42,369 bases of DNA from Bacteroidia bacterium (GTDB taxonomy: Bacteria > Bacteroidota > Bacteroidia > JANWVE01), in assembly GCA_025057675.1 (NCBI GenBank), contig JANWVE010000002.1, positions 2,457-44,825 of the forward strand. Direction: 5' to 3'. Below the pieces are notes generated by a model. That model saw nothing but the letters and a program-made list of their open reading frames with translations. It did not search any database and had not been told where the DNA came from. Made by a program: the position numbers and the translations under genes. Every line of letters starts with the position of its first letter. The first letter of the stretch is position 1. Below are positions 1 to 40,695 of the stretch, piece after piece.

Positions 1-623
1 TTTTTTTGGGCGTGTCCCTCGCTGCGCTTCGGGTCGGCGTGCTACGGGCTGACGGTGCTGCGCCCCACCCGCCCACCCCCTGGTTATGGGGTTAAGAGCG
101 TGGGCGAGGGGCTTCGCACCAAGCCTGACGGCTTGCCCTTCGCATGCCTCACGCACGCTGCAAGTATACTAATCCCACTTATACAAAATGTAATCTTGTC
201 AGTACTTGAAAATGAATACTAAACAAGGTAAAACTTAATTTTAACCTTGTAACTTATTGAAAACGAATCTAAAACAAAGTAAAACATCTGTATTTCAGGG
301 TTAAGGTTCGTGTAAAGTCCATGTATTCAAGATTTAACCTTATAAGTGTTTGAAAATGAAAATGGAGTAAGATGAAGTCAGTATATTGAAAACAAGGTAA
401 AAATTTTTAACATTTTAAGTATTTGATAATCAATGTAAAACAAGGTAAAGCAAACCCATGTATAAAAACAAGGTAAAGCATTCAGAAGCTGCTGCGTGAG
501 GCATGCGGAGGGTGCGTCAGCAGTGCGTAGCGAAGCGTAGCACCGAAGCGTCAGCGTAGCCCGAAGCACGCCGACCTTGTGGGCATACGCGCAGCGTAAC
601 GCCCACAAGGACACGCCCAAAAA
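1..623 (+). repeat. Composite intergenic element, copy 1 (B end - core - A end)
   Basis: ORF-free composite element that fills the region before the M20 gene and may begin to the left of the window. The left GC-rich end (1-160) is type B, with a C-rich tract and the hairpin CAAGCC-TGAC-GGCTTG at 120-135. The AT-rich core (about 161-490) holds tandem dyads and the central motif AAGTCCATGTATTCAAG in forward orientation. The right end (495-623) has type A inner sequence (TGC-GTCA-GCA hairpin at 513-522) joined to a B-type tip with the CTTGTGGGC/GCCCACAAG stem. It finishes with ACACGCCC and an A tract 19 nt before the M20 stop codon. Open frames seen here are products of the repeat, not genes. 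Confidence 0.93.
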
Positions 624-2086: not shown

Positions 2087-2704
2087 TTTTGGGCGTGTCC
2101 CTTCGCTGCGCTCGGGTCGGCGTGCTGCGGGCTGCGCTATCGCTTCGGTGCTTCGCTGCGCTCCGCACTGCTGACGCACCCTCCGCATGCCTCACGCACG
2201 CTGCTTTTAGATGTTTTACCTCATTTTTATACATGCGCATACTTTACCCTGTTTAATCTTGATTATCAACTGCTTACAAGGTTAAGATTTTTTACTTTGT
2301 TTTAACTACGTTTGTTTTATCTTGTTTTGTATTGATTTTCAAGTAGGCACAAGGTTAAATCTTGAATACATAGACTTTATATACGCCCCTTCAACGTTGA
2401 TTAAATTTACTTTGTTTTGCACTCATTTTCAGATTTTTGCAAGGTTAAAATATATTTTAACCTTGTTTGCCATTTATTTTCAAGTACTTACAAGATAAAG
2501 TTTTGTATAAGTGGGATTAGTCTGCATGCCGCTTGCGTGAGGCATGCGGAGGGCGTGCGGTAGCACGGTGCGAAGCCCACTCGCACACGCTCTTAACCCC
2601 ATAACCAGGGGTTGGGCGGGTGGGGCGCAGCACCGTTAGCCCGTAGCACGCCGACCTTGCCCACACGAGCGCAGCGAGCCGTGGGCAAGGACACGCCCAA
2701 AAAA
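2087..2704 (-). repeat. Composite intergenic element, copy 2 (A end - core - B end)
   Basis: Full-length copy with the core in reverse orientation (central motif CTTGAATACATAGACTTTAT). The left end is type A (2087-2205). The right end is type B (about 2525-2704), with the inner hairpin CGTGC-GGTA-GCACG at 2554-2567 and the tip stem CTTGCCCAC/GTGGGCAAG at 2656-2664/2681-2689. This tip stem differs from that of copy 1 on both strands of the hairpin. It lies between the M20 start and the phosphopantetheinyl transferase stop codon. No gene is seen inside it. Confidence 0.95.
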
Positions 2705-3454: not shown

Positions 3455-4010
3455 TTTTTGGGCGTGTCCCTCGCTGCGCTCGGGTCGGCGTGCTACGGGC
3501 TACGCTATCGCTGCGGTGCTTCGCTGCGCTCCGCACTGCTGACGCACCCTCCGCATGCCTCACGCAGCAGCTATTAAACTAAATCCACCTATTCAAATCT
3601 TAACTCTGTAAGTGTCTGAAAATCAAAACTAAACAAAGTAAAATTTAATTTTAACCTTGTAAAGCCTTGAAAATCAATTCAAAATAAGGTAAAGCTGGCA
3701 GATTCAGGGTTAAAGGGTTATCAAAAGTCCATGCATTCAAGGTTTAACATTGTACATGTTTGAAAATCAATACAAAACAAGATAAAACAAACACGGTTCA
3801 AAAAAGGTAAAAAATTTTAATCTTGCAACTGCTTGATAATCAAACTTAAACAAGGTAAAGCAAACGCGTGTATGCAAACAAGGTAAAGTATCAAAACGCA
3901 GCTTGCGTGAGGGATACGGAGCATGCCGTCAGGCAGTGCGAAGCACCGAAGCGAACGCGTAGTGCGCAGTAGCCCGACCCGAAGCGCAGCGAAGGGACAC
4001 GCCCAAAAAA
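3455..4010 (+). repeat. Composite intergenic element, copy 3 (A end - core - C end)
   Basis: Full copy with a forward core (AAAGTCCATGCATTCAAGG). The left end is type A. The right end is type C (about 3900-4010). Type C reads GAGGGATACGGAGCATGCC instead of GAGGCATGCGGAGGG and carries the hairpin TGCC-GTCA-GGCA at 3924-3935. C-type ends resemble intergenic GGGCGT...GGTCGGGCT...CCCTCACGC repeats that I recall from other Bacteroidota; this is memory and was not searched. It lies between the PPTase start and the K+ channel stop. Confidence 0.95.
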
Positions 4011-6270: not shown

Positions 6271-6864
6271 TGGCGTGTCCCTCGCTGCGCTCGGGTCGGC
6301 GTGCTGCGGGCTGCGCTATCGCTTCGGTGCTTCGCACTGCTTACGCACCCTCCGCATGCCTCACGCATCAGCCTTTTGACGTTTTACCTTGTTTTTAGCC
6401 ATATCTTTACTTTATTTGATATTGACTATCAAACACTTACAAGATTAAAATTTTTTACTTTGTTTCAAATGTTGTTACTTTACCTTGTTTTGATTTTCAA
6501 TTATTTACAAGGTTAAACCTTAAATACATGGACTTTACAGAGCGTTTTAACCTTGGATACGCAATTTTTACCTTATTTTGAATTGATTTTCAAATGTTTA
6601 CAAGGTAAAAATATATTTTGACCTTGTTTAATGTTCATTTTCAGATACTTACAAGATTAAGCTTTGAATAAGTGGGATTAGTGTACTTACCGCTTGCGTG
6701 AGGCATGCGGAGGGCAAGCCGTCAGGCTTGGTGCGAAGCCCCTCGCACACGCCCTTAACCCCATAACCAGGGGGTGGGCGGGTGGGGCGTAGCACCGTTA
6801 GCCCGTAGCACGCCGACCTTGTGGCATACGCGCAGCGTAACGCCACAAGGACACGCCCAAAAAA
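6271..6864 (-). repeat. Composite intergenic element, copy 4 (A end - core - B end)
   Basis: Full copy with a reverse core (CTTAAATACATGGACTTTACA). The left A end begins TGGCGTGTCC, one G short of the usual tip. The B-type right end has the hairpin CAAGCC-GTCA-GGCTTG and a tip stem shortened to CTTGTGGC/GCCACAAG (6828-6835/6842-6849). One base pair is missing on both sides compared with the CTTGTGGGC form. It lies between the agmatinase start and the ispE stop. Confidence 0.95.
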
Positions 6865-11228: not shown

Positions 11229-11518
11229 ACAAGAGAAGTCCGTATATTTAAGGTCTAACCTTGTACATGCTTGAAAATGAATACAAAACAAGATAAAACG
11301 AGCGTAATTAAAACAGGATAAAAAATTTTAACCTTGTAAGTATTTGATAATCAAGATTAAATAAGATAAAGCAAAGATATGTACAAAAACAGGGTAAAAC
11401 ATGCAAACGCAGCTTGCGTGAGGCATGCGGAGGGTGCGTCAGCAGTGCGAAGCACCGAAGCGATAGCGCAGCCCGCAGCACGCCGACCCGAGCGCAGCGA
11501 AGGGACACGCCCAAAAAA
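11229..11518 (+). repeat. Half copy of the composite element (copy 6: half core - A end)
   Basis: Only the right half is present. The sequence begins at the central motif (AAGTCCGTATATTTAAGG), continues through the last two dyads of the core, and ends with a complete A end: hairpin TGC-GTCA-GCA, then the GACCCGAGCGCAGCGAAGGG tip and GACACGCCC. The left GC-rich end and the first two dyads are absent. The break coincides with the middle of the core. It is 28 nt from the Smr gene stop. Confidence 0.9.
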
Positions 11519-12354: not shown

Positions 12355-12964
12355 TTTGGGCGTGTCCTTGTGGGCGTTATGCTGCGCATATAGCCCACAA
12401 GGTCGGCGTGCTACGGGCTAACGGTGCTACGCCCCCACCCGCCCACCCCCTGGGCAAGAGTGAAAGCGTGAGCGAGGGGCTTCGCACCAAGCCTGACGGC
12501 TTGCCCTCCGCATGCCTCACGCAAGCTGCCAATAAACTAAGTCTATTTATTCAAAACTTAACCTTGTAAGTATCTGAAAATGAACTATAAACAAGATAAA
12601 ATTCAATTTTAACCTTGTAAATCATTGAAAATCAATATAAAACAAGGTAAAACTTGCGTATTCAAAGTTAAAGGTTTATCAAAAGTCCATGTATTCAAGG
12701 TTTAACCTTGTACACGCTTGATAATCAATACAAAACAAGATAAAGTAAGCGCACTTGAAACAAGGTAAAAAATTTCGACCTTACAAGTGTTTGATAATGA
12801 ACATCAAACAAGGTAAAGCAAGGATATGTATAAAAACAAGGTAAAACGTCCAAAGGCAGCTTGCGTGAGGCATGCGGAGGGTGCGTCAGCAGTGCGAAGC
12901 ACCGAAGCGATAGCGCAGCCCGCAGCACGCCGACCCGAGCGCAGCGAGGGACACGCCCAAAAAA
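12355..12964 (+). repeat. Composite intergenic element, copy 7 (B end - core - A end)
   Basis: The clearest forward-oriented full copy. The B end carries the tip stem CTTGTGGGC/GCCCACAAG (12367-12375/12393-12401). The core has four dyads, at about 12558-12601, 12607-12652, 12701-12745 and 12773-12818, with the central motif AAAGTCCATGTATTCAAGG at 12682-12700. The A end finishes GAGGGACACGCCC and an A tract. The 200 nt between the Smr start and the element hold no gene that I can see, only a weak, decayed dyad near 12212-12240. Confidence 0.96.
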
Positions 12965-14793: not shown

Positions 14794-15348
14794 TTTTTTT
14801 GGGCGTGTCCCTCGCTGCGCTCGGGTCGGCGTGCTGCGGGCTTCGCTATCGCTTCGGTGCTACGCTTGCGCTACGCACTGCTGACGCACCCTCCGCATGC
14901 CTCACGCAGCAACCTTGGGATGTTTTACCTTCTTTTTAGACATATCGTTGTTTTATCTTGTTTAAGATTGATTATCAAATACTTACAAGGTTAAAATTTT
15001 TTACCTTGCTTGATTTGAATTCGTTTTATCTTGTTTTGTATTGCTTTTCAACCATGTACAAGGTTAAACCTTGAATACATGGAATTTACAAAATAGTTTA
15101 ACTTTGAATACACAAACTTTACCTTACTTTAATTTGATTTTCAACGTTTTACAGGGTTAAAATATGTTTTAACTTTGTTTAGTGTTCATTTTCATGTACT
15201 TACGAGGTTAGATTTTGTATAAGTGGGCTTAGCATACTTGCTGTATGCGTGAGGCATGCGAAGGGCGTGCGGTAGCACGGTGCGCAGCACCGAAGCGCAG
15301 CGCAGCCCGTAGCACGCCGACCCGAGCGCAGCGAGGGGCACGCCCAAA
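14794..15348 (-). repeat. Composite intergenic element, copy 8 (A end - core - hybrid B/A end)
   Basis: Full copy with a reverse core (CTTGAATACATGGAATTTACA). The right end is a chimera. Its inner part is the B-type hairpin CGTGC-GGTA-GCACG, but the long G-rich arm of type B is missing. The outer part (CCGACCCGAGCGCAGCGAGGGG) is the A-type tip. It ends 27 nt before the lon stop codon. Confidence 0.95.
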
Positions 15349-18497: not shown

Positions 18498-19103
18498 TTT
18501 TTTGGGCGTGTCCTTGCCTGCGTTTCGCTGCGCTCATGCAGGCAAGGTCGGCGTGCTATGGGCTAACGGTGCTGCGCCCCACCCGCCCACCCCCTGGGTA
18601 AGAGCAAAAGTGTATGCGGGGGCTTCGCACCAAGCCTCACGGCTTGCCCTCCGCATGCCTCACGCAAGCAGCACGCAGACTAACTCCACTTACATAAACT
18701 TTTACCTTGTAAATAACTGAAAACAAACACAAAACAAGGTAAAAGTACATTTTAACCTTGTAAACATTTGAAAATGACTGAAAAACAAGGTAAAGATTAT
18801 TTAATCAAGGTTAAAAAATCTTGTAAAGTCCATATATTCAAGGTTTAGTCTTGTACATCCTTGAAAATCAATACAAAACAAGGTAAAATGAACGCGATTC
18901 AGCAAAGGTAAAAAAATTTAATTTTGTAAATAGTTGATAATCAACCTTAAACAAGGTAAAGCAAAGATATGTATAAAAACAAGGTAAAACATCCAAATAC
19001 TGTGTGCGTGAGGCATGCGGAGGGTGCGTAAGCAGTGCGCAGCACCGAAGCGATAGCGCAGCCCGCAGCACGCCGACCCGAGCATTAGCGAGGGACACGC
19101 CCA
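18498..19103 (+). repeat. Composite intergenic element, copy 9 (B end - core - A end)
   Basis: Full copy with a forward core (AAAGTCCATATATTCAAGG). The B-end tip stem is the variant CTTGCCTGC/GCAGGCAAG (18513-18521/18538-18546), and the inner hairpin is CAAGCC-TCAC-GGCTTG. The A end has TGC-GTAA-GCA and a tip changed by a small substitution (GAGCATTAGCGAGGG). It lies between the divergently placed tRNA-Arg and the nicotinamidase-like gene. Confidence 0.95.
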
Positions 19104-19971: not shown

Positions 19972-20524
19972 TTTTTTTGGGCGTGTCCTTGTGGGCGTTA
20001 TGCTGCGCGTATGCCCACAAGGTCGGCGTGCTACGGGCTAACGGTGCTGCGCCCCACCCGCCCACCCCCTGGTCAAGAGTAAAAGCGTGGGCGAGGGGCT
20101 TCGCACTGCTCACGCACCCTCCGCATGCCTCACGCAAGGACCTTTGCAGATTAGCGGAGTCTATTTATTCAAAGATTTACTTTGCAAGTACCTCAAGATG
20201 AATACTAAACGAGGTAAAAATATACTTTTTACTTTGTAATTCATGGAAAAATCAATTCAAAATAAGGTAAAGTTTGCCTATTCAGTATGAAAAGGTTATC
20301 AAAAGTTGATATATTCAAGGTTTAACCTTGTAAGTACGTAATAATGAGCATCAAGTAAGGTAAAGCAAGAGTATGTATAAAAATAAGATAAAACATTGAA
20401 AAGCTGCTTGCGTGAGGGATACGGAGCATGCCGTTAGGCAGTGCGAAGCGCAGCGTAGCACCGAAGCGATAGCGTGGTGCGCAGTAGCCCGACCCGAAGC
20501 GCAGCGAGGGACACGCCCAAAAAA
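19972..20524 (+). repeat. Composite intergenic element, copy 10 (B end - short core - C end)
   Basis: Forward copy with a shortened core: one dyad after the central motif AAAGTTGATATATTCAAGG is missing. The left B end has tip stem CTTGTGGGC/GCCCACAAG and the inner hairpin TGC-TCAC-GCA rather than the usual B hairpin, so inner parts of the ends have been exchanged. The right C end has TGCC-GTTA-GGCA. It begins 7 nt after the stop of the preceding gene. Confidence 0.94.
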
Positions 20525-22331: not shown

Positions 22332-22367
22332 AATGTCATAAAAACCAAGTCTAAAAAATAATTTTAC

Positions 22368-22980
22368 TTTTTGGGCGTGTCCCTCGCTGATGCTCGGGTC
22401 GGGCTACTCCGCACTACGCTGACGCTTCGGTGCTACGCTATTGCTTCGCACTGCCTAACGGCATGCTCCGTATCCCTCACGCAGCAGCGTTTTGATGTTT
22501 TACTTTGTTTCTAAATATATCTTTGCTTTACCTTGTTTAAGGTTGATTATCAACTATTTACAAAATTAATTTTTTTACCTTTACTGAATCGCTGCTATTT
22601 TACTTTGTTTTACATTGATTTTCAAGGATGTGCAAGACTAAACCTTGAATATATGGACTTTACAAGATTTTTTAACCTTGATTAAATAATCTTTACCTTG
22701 TTTTTCAGTCATTTTCAAATGTTTACAAGGTTAAAATGTACTTTTACCTTGTTTTGTGTTTGTTTTCAGGTATTTACAAGGTAAAAGTTTATGTAAGTGG
22801 AGTTAGTCTGCGTGCTGCTTGCGTGAGGCATGCGGAGGGCAAGCCGTGAGGCTTGGTGCGAAGCCCCCGCATACGCTTTTACTCTTGCCCAGGGGGTAGG
22901 GCGCAGCACCGTTAGCCCGTAGCACGCCGACCTTGCTTGCATGAGCGCAGCGAAACGCAAGCAAGGACACGCCCAAAAAA
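22368..22980 (-). repeat. Composite intergenic element, copy 11 (C end - core - B end)
   Basis: Full copy with a reverse core (CTTGAATATATGGACTTTACA). The left end is type C (inner hairpin TGCC-TAAC-GGCA, followed by TATCCCTCACGCA). The right end is type B with tip stem CTTGCTTGC/GCAAGCAAG (22932-22940/22957-22965), a fifth version of the paired stem. The 22 nt just outside the left tip (AGTCTAAAAAATAATTTTAC) are shared with copy 14. Confidence 0.95.
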
Positions 22981-25233: not shown

Positions 25234-25823
25234 TTTTTTTGGGCGTGTCCCTCGCTGCGCTCGGGTCGGCGTGCTACGGGCTGCGCTATCGCTTCGGTGC
25301 TGCGCTTGCGCTCCGCACTGCTGACGCACCCTCCGCATGCCTCACGCAGCAGTCTTCTGACGTTTTACCTTGTTTTTAGACATATCTTTGCTTTACCTTG
25401 TTTGATATTGATTATCAAATACTTACAAGGATAAAATTTTTTACCTTGTTTGAAGCGCTGTTATTTTACTTTATTTCTTATTCATTTTCAAGCATTTGTA
25501 AGGTTAAACCTTGAATACATGTACTATACAACCCTTTAACCCTGAATAAATAACTTTTATCTTGTTTCGCGTTCATTTTGAGTGAGTTGAGAAGTTAAGT
25601 TTTATTTTTACTTTGTTTATCATTGATTATCAAATACTTGCAAGGTTGCGTCTTCAATAAATGAGGTTAGCATACTTGCTGCTCGCGTGAGGCATGCGGA
25701 GGGCGTGCGGTAGCACGGTGCGAAGCCTCTCGCCCACTCTTTTACTCCTGACCAGGGGGTGGGGCGAAGCACCGTTAGCCCGCAGCACGCCGACCCGAGC
25801 GCAGCGAGGGACACGCCCAAAAA
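25234..25823 (-). repeat. Composite intergenic element, copy 12 (A end - core - B/A hybrid end)
   Basis: Full copy with a reverse core (CTTGAATACATGTACTATACA). The left end is type A. The right end has the B-type inner arm (hairpin CGTGC-GGTA-GCACG and a G-rich stretch) but an A-type tip (CCGACCCGAGCGCAGCGAGGG). It lies directly against the IS982-like remnant on the left and 59 nt from the glycosyltransferase stop on the right. Confidence 0.95.
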
Positions 25824-28571: not shown

Positions 28572-29177
28572 TTTTTGGGGCGTGTCCCTTCGCTGCGCTT
28601 TGGGTCGGCGTGCTACGGGCTGCGCTTTCGCTTCGGTGCTTCGCTGCGCTGCGCACTGCTGACGCACCCTCCGCATGCCTCACGCAGCAGCTTTGGGATG
28701 TTTTACCTTGTTCCTATATATACATTTGCTTTACCCTGTTTAATGCTCATTATCAAATACTTAAAAAGTTAAAATTTTCTACCCTGTTTGATATACCCTC
28801 ATTTTATATTGTTTTGAGCTCATTTTCAAGTATGTACAAGGTTAAACTCCGAATATATGGACTTTTCATACCCTTTTAACCTTGAATACGCAAATTTTAC
28901 CTTGTTTTCAATTGATATTGAGGTATGTACAAGGTAAAAAATTTGCTTTTACCTTGTTTAGTATTCATTTTCAGGTACTTACAAGGTTAAAGTTTGAGTA
29001 GGTGGACTTAGTTAGACAGCTGCTTGCGTGAGGCATGCGGAGGGCAAGCCGTGAGGCTTGGTGCGAAGCCCCTCGCCCACGCTCAAACCCTTGCCCAGGG
29101 GGTGGGGCGCAGCACCGAAGCGAAGCGCAGCCCGCAGCACGCCGACCCGAGCGCAGCGAGGGACACGCCCAAAAAAA
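28572..29177 (-). repeat. Composite intergenic element, copy 13 (A end - core - B/A hybrid end)
   Basis: Full copy with a reverse core (CCGAATATATGGACTTTTCA). The left end is type A. The right end combines the B inner hairpin CAAGCC-GTGA-GGCTTG and its G-rich arm with an A-type tip. It lies between the cysS start and the dnaK terminator. Confidence 0.95.
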
Positions 29178-32729: not shown

Positions 32730-33041
32730 ATATGTATTTATGTGTTTTTTGTTGTATGCTTTTCAAGAGTAACGGCAATATTATGTATTTTGTTTCAAAA
32801 CCAAAAAAATAAGGTACAACTATTAAGACAACTGAAGTTTTTCATTAAAATACAGCACAAATCATCTTGACAATATGTTTGACATTTTATTTAGTATGAA
32901 TGATATCTGTGGGTATAATGGTGTGAATATCGGGGCGCAAAATGGTCTTCGGGTTGTTGAGAGATATATTTTAATAAATGAGCATAATTGAAAATACGCC
33001 TGGTACAAAGTTTTTATATTAAGTCTAAAAAATAATTTTAC
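32730..33041 (+). other. Gene-poor spacer with one unexplained 38-codon frame
   Basis: No supported gene. A plus-strand frame of 38 codons (32875-32991, MFDILFSMNDICGYNG...) begins after a TATGTTTG-like sequence, but nothing identifies it. It could be the tail of a lost gene. The last 27 nt (about 33015-33041) are the left half of the extended inverted repeat around copy 14. Confidence 0.35.
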
Positions 33042-33609
33042 TTTTTTGGGCGTGTCCCTTCGCTGCGCTTCGGGTCGGCGTGCTGCGGGCTGCGCTATCG
33101 CTTCGGTGCTGCGCTTCGCTCCGCACTGCTGACGCACCCTCCGCATGCCTCACGCAAGAACCTTGGCAGGTCTGCAAGCGCTATTTATTCAAAGTTCTAC
33201 TCTTTAAGTATCTGAAAATGAATACTAAATAAGGTAAAATACATTTTAACCTTGTAAATCACCGAAGAATTCAAAATAAAACAAAATCTCAACATTCAGG
33301 GCTAAATGGGTGTAAAAAGTTCATACATTCGAGTTTTAACATTCTCTAAGTAATTGAAAATGAATACTAAACAAGGTAAAACGTCATAATTAAAACAAAG
33401 TAAAAAAATTTAACCTTGTAAGTATTTGATAATAAACATCAAACAAGGTAAAACAAATGTATGCATACAAACCAAGTAAAACATCCAAACGCAGCTTGCG
33501 TGAGGGATACGGAGCATGCCGTTAGGCAGTGCGAAGCGTGAGCGTAGCACCGAGCGTTAGCGTAGTGCGCCGTAGCCCGACCCGAAGCGCAGCGAAGGGA
33601 CACGCCCAG
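33042..33609 (+). repeat. Composite intergenic element, copy 14 (A end - core - C end) with extended inverted repeat
   Basis: Forward copy with a degenerate core (AAAAGTTCATACATTCGAG). The left end is type A and the right end type C (TGCC-GTTA-GGCA). The inverted repeat continues outside the usual tips: the left flank AAGTCTAAAAAATAATTTTA (from 33020) matches the reverse complement of the right flank (33610-33640) over about 27 nt. The remaining 210 nt before the crotonase gene hold one decayed dyad (about 33658-33700) and no gene. Confidence 0.95.
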
Positions 33610-34698: not shown

Positions 34699-35263
34699 TT
34701 TTTGGGCGTGCCCTTGCCCACGTCTTGCTTACGCTCGTGTGGGCAAGGTCGGCGTGCTACGGGCTAACGGTGCTACGTCCCACCCACCCGCCCCTGGGCA
34801 AGGGTAAAAGCGTGTGCAAGGGGCTTCGCACCGTGCTATCGCACGCCCTTCGCATGCCTCACGCAGCAGCTATCAAACTAAGTCCATCTATTCAAATCTT
34901 AACCTTGTAAATAATTGAAAATCAATTCAAAATAAGGTAAAGCTTGCGAGTCCAGGGTTAAAAGCGTATCAAAAGTCCATGTATTTGAGGTTTAACCTTG
35001 TATATGCTTGAAAGTGAATACAAAACAAGGTAAAATAACAACAATTCAAAGAGGGTAAAAAATTTTAACCTTGTAAGTATTTGATAATCAACACTAAACA
35101 AGGTAAAACAAATGCATGTATAAAAACAAGGTAAAACATCCAAGAGCTGCTGCGTGAGGCATGCGGAGGGTGCGTGAGCAGTGCGGAGCGAAGCGAAGCA
35201 CCGAAGCGTCAGCGCAGCCCGCAGCACGCCGACCCGAGCGCAGCGAAGGGACACGCCCAAAAT
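34699..35263 (+). repeat. Composite intergenic element, copy 15 (B end - shortened core - A end)
   Basis: Forward copy (AAAAGTCCATGTATTTGAGG). The left B end starts GGGCGTGCCC and has tip stem CTTGCCCAC/GTGGGCAAG. The inner hairpin is CGTGC-TATC-GCACG (34832-34845). The first dyad of the core is missing, so the core is about 45 nt shorter. The A end has TGC-GTGA-GCA. It sits between the convergent crotonase and recQ genes, 82 and 26 nt from their stops. Confidence 0.95.
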
Positions 35264-37560: not shown

Positions 37561-37973
37561 TTTTGGGCGTGTCCCTCGCTGCGCTCGGGTCGGTGCATTC
37601 CGCACTACGCGTACGCTTCGGTGCTGCGCTCACGCTTCGCACTGCCTTACGGCATGCTCTATGCCCCTCACGCATTTAACCCTGGATTTTGAGGTCTTTA
37701 TCTCATTTTATGCATAGTTTTGTTTTATTTTGTTTTTGCGTTATTTGGAGTTTATTTACAAGGTTAAACATAATATAGATAGTTTAAGATACTTGCACAA
37801 TGTTCTTGCGTGAGGCATGCGGAGGGCAAGCCGTCAGGCTTGGTGCGAAGCCCCACGCCCTTGACCCCATAACGAGGGGGTGGGCGGGTGGGGTGCAGCA
37901 CCGTTAGCCCGTAGCACGCCGACCTTGTGGGCATGAGCGCCAGCGAAACGCCCACAAGGACACGCCAAAAAAA
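37561..37973. repeat. Composite element, copy 16, with almost no core (C end - B end)
   Basis: Short copy of about 413 bp. A C end (TGCC-TTAC-GGCA) and a full B end with tip stem CTTGTGGGC/GCCCACAAG (37924-37932/37950-37958) flank only about 130 nt of AT-rich sequence, in which no more than one weak dyad can be seen. The tip on the right has lost one C (ACACGCC). It shows that the two ends can exist with the core nearly deleted. It lies between the thrS stop and the pterin dehydratase start. Confidence 0.92.
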
Positions 37974-40072: not shown

Positions 40073-40695
40073 TTTTTTTTGGGCGTGTCCCTTGCTGCGC
40101 TTCGGGTCGGCGTGCTGCGGGCTACGCTTCGCTTCGGTGCTTCGCTGCGCTCCGCACTGCTCACGCACCCTCCGCATGCCTCACGCAGCAGCTTTTACAT
40201 ATTTTACCTTGTTTTTATACATACGTTTGCTTTACCTTGTTTAATATTGATTATCAAACAATTACAAAGTTAAATTTCTTTACCTTGTTTGAGAGGTTGT
40301 TGTTTTATCTTGTTTTGTATTCATTTTCAGGTATATACAAGGTTAAACCTTGAATACATAGACTTTTTGCAACCCTTTAACCCTGATTCCCAAAATTTTA
40401 CTTTATTTTGAATTGATTTTCAATGACTTATAAGGTTAAAGCATGTTTTTATCTTGTCTGATGTTGATATTCAGATACTTACAAAGTTAATTTTTAAATA
40501 AGTGGCGTTAGCATACTTGCGGCGTTCTTGCGTGAGGCATGCGGAGGGCGTGCGTTAGCACGGTGCGAAGCCCCTCGCCCACGCTTTTACCCTTGACCAG
40601 GGGGTGGGCGGGTGGGGCGCAGCACCGTTAGCCCGTAGCACGCCGACCTTGTGGGCATACGCGCAGCGTAACGCCCACAAGGACACGCCCAAAAA
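40073..40695 (-). repeat. Composite intergenic element, copy 17 (A end - core - B end)
   Basis: Full copy with a reverse core (CTTGAATACATAGACTTTT). The left A end has TGC-TCAC-GCA. The right B end has the hairpin CGTGC-GTTA-GCACG (40549-40562), an outer stem CGCCCAC/GTGGGCG enclosing CCCTTGACCAGGG, and tip stem CTTGTGGGC/GCCCACAAG. It ends 57 nt before the stop of the WD40 gene. Confidence 0.96.

Follow-up and report, generated by a model that had tools for sequence, protein, structure and literature searches.

Several families of short structured repeats are scattered through bacterial chromosomes. REP sequences are palindromes of 20-40 bp with a GT[AG]G tetranucleotide at their 5' foot, and pairs of them (REPINs and BIMEs) are mobilized by RAYT, a Y1 transposase. 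A REPIN consists of two inverted structured units around a spacer; it is non-autonomous, intergenic and present in high copy, the working model is recognition of a folded single strand, and REP stems can also carry mispairs. In the Bacteroidetes, genes of TnpAREP subclass 2.6 are flanked by "atypical secondary structures" that lack GT[AG]G and have copies elsewhere in the genome (PMC6006769). CGTC-tagged REPs are palindromic repeats with an unpaired 3' tail of CCA type and are said to lack a dedicated transposase (PMC3733652). MITECca01 of Cardinium, also in the Bacteroidota, is an intergenic, non-autonomous element that derives from an IS982 element and is present in many copies, making up 3.5% of the chromosome (PMC9769881). 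Independently of these repeats, GNA and GNNA mini-hairpins with at least two G-C pairs have been described as extraordinarily stable in DNA (PMC4686876), and d(cGNNAg) is a described DNA motif (Nakano et al. 2002, cited in PMC5090098). These hairpins were described as DNA fragments and selected sequences.

Here we examined a 42,369-nucleotide stretch from a Bacteroidia bacterium (the window), in which the first-pass annotation had noted an inner hairpin with a changing stem and a constant GNNA loop. We find that this hairpin uses the identical grammar of C-G closure, G and A at the loop ends, free middle bases and two G-C pairs, but in a natural repeat that occurs genome-wide. The hairpin, which we call P3, caps one part of a branched unit of about 95-165 nt (the arm). 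Two inverted arms around an AT-rich core of about 340 bp form elements of about 600 bp. The arrangement of two inverted units separated by a spacer is that of a REPIN, although the unit is larger than a REP and branched. The 5' foot is T|GCGTGAGG, with T in 369 of 377 arms of this genome (G000), and neither GT[AG]G nor a CGTC tag is present; with no Y1 transposase in the three genus members and no arm near 37 Y1 genes as well, the arm does not qualify as a REP. Most arms end in CACGC-CCA followed by A-rich sequence, though where the true end lies is uncertain. In contrast to MITECca01, no parent IS is known for this element.

A GTNA-capped hairpin within a covarying arm

At positions 2554-2567 the window reads CGTGC-GGTA-GCACG. 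The complete element that contains this hairpin is arranged as follows.

2092-2698, one complete element of about 607 bp, with two inverted GC-rich arms around an AT-rich core and termini GGCGTGTCC...GGACACGCCC flanked by a T-run and an A-run
2535-2698, plus strand, right arm read core to tip (5' to 3'), the strand that carries the GNA/GNNA loops and contains the hairpin
2554-2567, plus strand, P3 hairpin CGTGC-GGTA-GCACG
2535-2539, plus strand, P1 5' strand GCGTG
2692-2696, plus strand, P1 3' strand CACGC, pairing with 2535-2539
2541-2547, plus strand, P2 5' strand GGC-A-TGC, in which A2544 is the conserved mismatch
2646-2652, plus strand, P2 3' strand GCA-C-GCC, pairing with 2541-2547 around an A.C mismatch
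2548-2550, plus strand, GGA side of the GNA/GNA internal loop (partner GTA 2643-2645)
2643-2645, plus strand, GTA side of the internal loop, whose middle base is hypervariable among copies
2551-2553, plus strand, P2c 5' strand GGG
2640-2642, plus strand, P2c 3' strand CCC
2655-2690, plus strand, P6 side hairpin near the tip, CCTTGCCCAC...GTGGGCAAGG with apex GA-GC-GCA-GC-GA (the same architecture is seen in a related arm)
2091-2197, minus strand, left arm of the same element (P3 at 2169-2178, TGC-GTCA-GCA)
2198-2534, AT-rich core with TTTAACCTTGT / ACAAGGTAAA repeats

A script located 28 further arms in the window, each listed with its P3 stem and loop.

8-154, minus strand, P3 120-135 CAAGCC-GTCA
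494-618, plus strand, P3 513-522 TGC-GTCA
3460-3565, minus strand, P3 3537-3546 TGC-GTCA
3905-4004, plus strand, P3 3924-3935 TGCC-GTCA (GGGATAC/GTAGCCC allele of P2)
6271-6366, minus strand, P3 6338-6347 TGC-GTAA
6696-6858, plus strand, P3 6715-6730 CAAGCC-GTCA
11416-11512, plus strand, P3 11435-11444 TGC-GTCA
12358-12522, minus strand, P3 12488-12503 CAAGCC-GTCA
12863-12958, plus strand, P3 12882-12891 TGC-GTCA
14801-14907, minus strand, P3 14879-14888 TGC-GTCA
15247-15345, plus strand, P3 15266-15279 CGTGC-GGTA
18504-18665, minus strand, P3 18631-18646 CAAGCC-GTGA
19006-19102, plus strand, P3 19025-19034 TGC-GTAA
19979-20135, minus strand, P3 20107-20116 TGC-GTGA
20410-20518, plus strand, P3 20429-20440 TGCC-GTTA
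22373-22482, minus strand, P3 22452-22463 TGCC-GTTA
22821-22974, plus strand, P3 22840-22855 CAAGCC-GTGA
25241-25347, minus strand, P3 25319-25328 TGC-GTCA
25685-25818, plus strand, P3 25704-25717 CGTGC-GGTA
28578-28685, minus strand, P3 28657-28666 TGC-GTCA
29026-29170, plus strand, P3 29045-29060 CAAGCC-GTGA
33048-33155, minus strand, P3 33127-33136 TGC-GTCA
33498-33607, plus strand, P3 33517-33528 TGCC-GTTA
34704-34864, minus strand, P3 34832-34845 CGTGC-GATA
35152-35258, plus strand, P3 35171-35180 TGC-GTGA
37808-37967, plus strand, P3 37827-37842 CAAGCC-GTCA
40081-40186, minus strand, P3 40158-40167 TGC-GTGA
40530-40690, plus strand, P3 40549-40562 CGTGC-GTTA

In all 30 arms of the window the hairpin has a GNNA loop. 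To ask whether this holds beyond the window, we parsed 418 anchors in 747 kb of G000 and found GNNA in 382, of which 366 are GTNA. The loop is GNNA in 101 of 102 arms of one congener (G002) and in 20 of 25 arms of another (G001). Pooled over stems of at least 3 bp with a 4-base loop, 503 of 523 loops are GNNA, 520 of 523 are closed by C-G, and 16 of 17 distinct stem sequences have a GNNA majority loop. A pattern search for the adjoining anchor found 1231 exact matches in the 2.89-Mb genome and none for the reversed control. The observation of a fixed loop on changing stems is thus confirmed, and frequent non-GNNA loops or broken stems, which had been named beforehand as grounds for rejecting it, were not found.

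Two details of the original description require correction. First, the loop is better written GTNA, because position 2 is almost always T while position 3 takes all four bases. Second, the stems were said to vary freely in sequence and length, but they fall into about ten discrete sequences (TGC, TGCC, CAAGCC, CGTGC, TGGGC, TGCCC, AGGGC, TGTGC, TATGC and AGTGC). Within each of the four large G000 classes, substitution is 0.2-0.5% per stem position and there are almost no broken pairs.

Entropy along arms of equal length showed that most strongly variable positions sit at the N of GC-GNA-GC or GC-GNNA-GC, the remainder being a few positions next to those loops and two correlated blocks. The correlated blocks proved to be stem strands. 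The anchor GGCATGC pairs with GCACGCC and its allele GGGATAC with GTAGCCC, with an A.C or A.G mismatch at the fourth pair, and GGG/CCC pairs against GCA/TGC beyond an internal loop of GRA against GNA. In 379 G000 arms with exact starts, the nine P2 and P2c pairs are Watson-Crick in nearly every cell, with 6 G-T cells in 3411, and the internal-loop ends are G.A and A.G in about 98%. On the core-to-tip strand of G000 arms, GCGNAGC occurs 3.46 times per arm, compared to 0.01 for the complementary word and 0.14 in shuffles; arms from other families have 1.53 against 0.00. Thermodynamic folding of four natural arms predicts P1 (GCGTG/CACGC), P2 and P6 in three of them with DNA parameters (z -2.9 to -4.9) and in all four with RNA parameters. 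The fourth and shortest arm keeps only P1 as DNA and scores no better than shuffles (z -0.61).

We then counted covariation in the P1, P2 and P6-base pairs against controls. In an alignment of 39 arms from the genus (A1), 99.2% of 624 cells are standard pairs, compared to 87.9% in shuffles and at most 49.1% when the partner was slid. A covariance model built from A1 found related arms in 30 of 395 sampled Bacteroidia genomes, representing 18 of 197 genera. Nineteen such arms from other families (A2) pair in 95.0% of cells against 82.6% in shuffles, with 10 of 16 pairs changed on both sides, which none of 500 shuffles reached. Although A2 was fitted to the model and its absolute pairing therefore leans to the structure, the changes on both sides in P1 and P2 are visible in the raw sequences. 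The mismatch is A.G in 16 of the 19, and P3 with a GTNA loop is not seen in most of the other-family arms. A GC-rich (58%) genome of another family (G019; loci L178 and L180-L183) carries longer arms with P2 GGGGCCC/GGGGCCC and a G.G at the mismatch position, containing nested hairpins such as CTTCGACAAGCTCAG. P6 sequence and length change freely between and within species, and the tip hairpins of G001 use CCTGAACCCTGAGCTTGCCGAAGGGTGAAGG (for example in loci L155 and L157).

Distribution of the element and searches for an enzyme

Mobility is supported by distribution. Elements make up 13.7% of the sampled sequence in G000, about a seventh, compared to 2.9% in G002 and 0.8% in G001. A two-armed element in locus L035 is missing at the orthologous site in both G002 and G001, and a single-arm copy in locus L018 is missing in G001, although these empty sites do not give clean junctions. 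Relatives carry single arms, so the arm is likely the basic unit and the 600-bp element a paired form around an AT-rich core, as in REPINs. Elements lie in 73% of convergent gaps, 40% of divergent gaps and 27% of tandem gaps, which fits insertion where promoters are not harmed. A subset (13 of 219 tips in G000) is preceded by the shared sequence TTAAGTCTAAAAAATAATTTTACTTTTTT (window 22340-22375 and 33015-33050; L019 8585), perhaps a preferred target or a longer subfamily.

The core is made of diverged units with TTTAACCTTGT ... TTGAAAATCAA ... ACAAGGTAAA, themselves inverted repeats, and diverges far more than the arms. In close element pairs with similar cores, loop N positions differ at 32%, about four times more often than the core (7%), while other arm positions differ at 5%. 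Free loop bases with constrained neighbors would explain part of this; hypermutation in loops could add to it, but this suggestive result cannot be told from exchange of arms between elements. G002 also carries derivatives of about 111 bp (L133:4798-4908, L134:131-242, L134:12278-12388 and L135:4289-4400) that keep only the two tips and P2 3' strands joined. They lack P3 and the core and look like deletion products between inverted arms; because they persist, P3 is not needed for retention.

The first-pass annotation suggested that a protein or RNA receptor recognizes the shape and proposed testing for binding to HUH/Y1 transposases or lysate proteins. We tested Y1 mobilization in three ways, and none supported it. 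A search with Y1_Tnp (PF01797) gave no match in the three genus genomes, although 16 of the 18 other relatives searched have it. None of 37 Y1 loci from the class has an arm within about 1.5 kb, including at least seven loci with subclass-2.6-like motifs. Additionally, arm-bearing genomes are not enriched for Y1 (15 of 30, compared to 244 of 365 others; Fisher p 0.07). Plasmid and phage collections gave no match, and of 16 viral contigs with the anchor word, none gave a convincing arm (best E 0.078). A text search of papers for the arm words returned only unrelated hits.

Interpretation and alternatives

Taken together, these results partly support the earlier interpretation. A conserved shape on changing stems is supported and extends to the whole arm, since P1 and P2 also covary. 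An RNA GNRA receptor is not supported, because position 3 is C or T in most loops and only 107 of 503 GNNA loops are GNRA, and because G-U pairs are rare. Recognition by Y1/HUH proteins is likewise not supported, although a different single-strand DNA-binding protein is not excluded.

We consider it somewhat more likely than not that the arm is the unit of a REP/REPIN-like non-autonomous mobile element recognized as folded single-stranded DNA. The sequences themselves show the architecture, namely P1 closing a three-way junction, P2 with one conserved A.C or A.G mismatch and a G-N-A/G-N-A internal loop, side hairpin P6, P3 inside and further GC-GNA-GC and GC-GNNA-GC mini-hairpins; they also show that at least one two-armed and one single-arm copy occupy sites that are empty in congeners, and that genome share differs about 17-fold inside the genus. 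What we infer is that the single strand, exposed for example during replication, folds into this shape and is recognized and copied or cut by an unidentified trans-acting protein; single-strandedness itself, and any extra thermal stability of the loops as DNA, belong to this inference. A sheared G.A pair makes the GAA loop compact (PMC4686876), and sheared G.A pairs make such loops and internal loops compact in DNA. In this view, GNA/GNNA caps are kept because they are compact and stable, which would leave their inner bases free to vary. The absence of any identified mobilizing enzyme, the lack of target-site duplications in 40 element flanks read by eye, empty sites without clean junctions, the fold of the shortest arm, the success of RNA parameters, the persistence of the G002 derivatives that have lost P3 and the lack of a GTNA-looped P3 in most of the other-family arms all weigh against this reading.

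The best surviving alternative, which we consider unlikely, is that the arms are transcribed at gene ends and act as structured RNA (a 3' end stabilizer, protein-binding site or regulatory RNA), with covariation reflecting RNA folding. RNA parameters do reproduce the P1/P2/P6 fold, and elements are concentrated in convergent gaps. However, G-U pairs are 3 of 619 paired cells in A1, compared to 11 of 199 in tRNA acceptor stems of the same genomes, the loops are mostly not GNRA, and two inverted arms make each element strand-symmetric. No Rfam family apart from tRNA reached its threshold in the window, the only other result being a sub-threshold hit. The convergent bias also fits tolerance of insertion away from promoters. 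Single-stranded DNA is therefore the better reading, though it is not proven.

Less likely still is that these are resident chromosomal elements acting as double-stranded DNA (cruciform or supercoil buffers, nucleoid or topoisomerase sites) and kept by purifying selection at each copy. Non-loop arm positions vary little within a class while N positions are close to saturated, elements fill most convergent gaps, and inverted arms suit cruciform extrusion. On the other hand, there are empty orthologous sites and large differences in genome share between congeners, selection on each of about a thousand copies is a heavy demand, and a symmetric cruciform does not require strand polarity of GNA/GNNA.

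A classic MITE moved by a DDE transposase that recognizes the TTTTTGGGCGTGTCC terminal inverted repeat is also unlikely. The element does have terminal inverted repeats, a non-coding interior, high copy number, an intergenic location and empty sites, but no target-site duplication was seen in the flanks inspected, and single-arm copies without a second terminus occur in relatives. Additionally, the neighboring ORFs of 17 arm loci from other families, judged from their translated starts in short loci and not by a profile search, looked like ordinary cellular genes. Finally, the idea that a few ancestral stem cassettes share a functionless loop by descent and recent spread fits the near-invariance of each stem class but is already disfavored, because about ten stem classes in three species share the loop, loop position 3 and the N of GCGNAGC are highly variable while their neighbors are not, the AT cores diverge far more than the arms so that the copies are not simply young, and P1 and P2 covary across families.

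A broader possibility, which we regard as tentative and less likely than not, is a class-wide family of mobile DNA whose functional form is a folded single strand built from GNA/GNNA caps and GNA/GNA internal loops, with natural compensatory evolution of a DNA fold across the Bacteroidia and spread by an enzyme other than the Y1 transposases that serve REPs. If our preferred reading is right, this is a natural, evolution-tested DNA fold, in which hundreds of copies give a readable map of the bases that a branched single-stranded DNA structure needs and those that are free. It would make the biological use of GNA/GNNA DNA mini-hairpins directly testable, and it would point to an unknown single-strand DNA-processing enzyme in the Bacteroidia that can fill about 14% of a genome with repeats.
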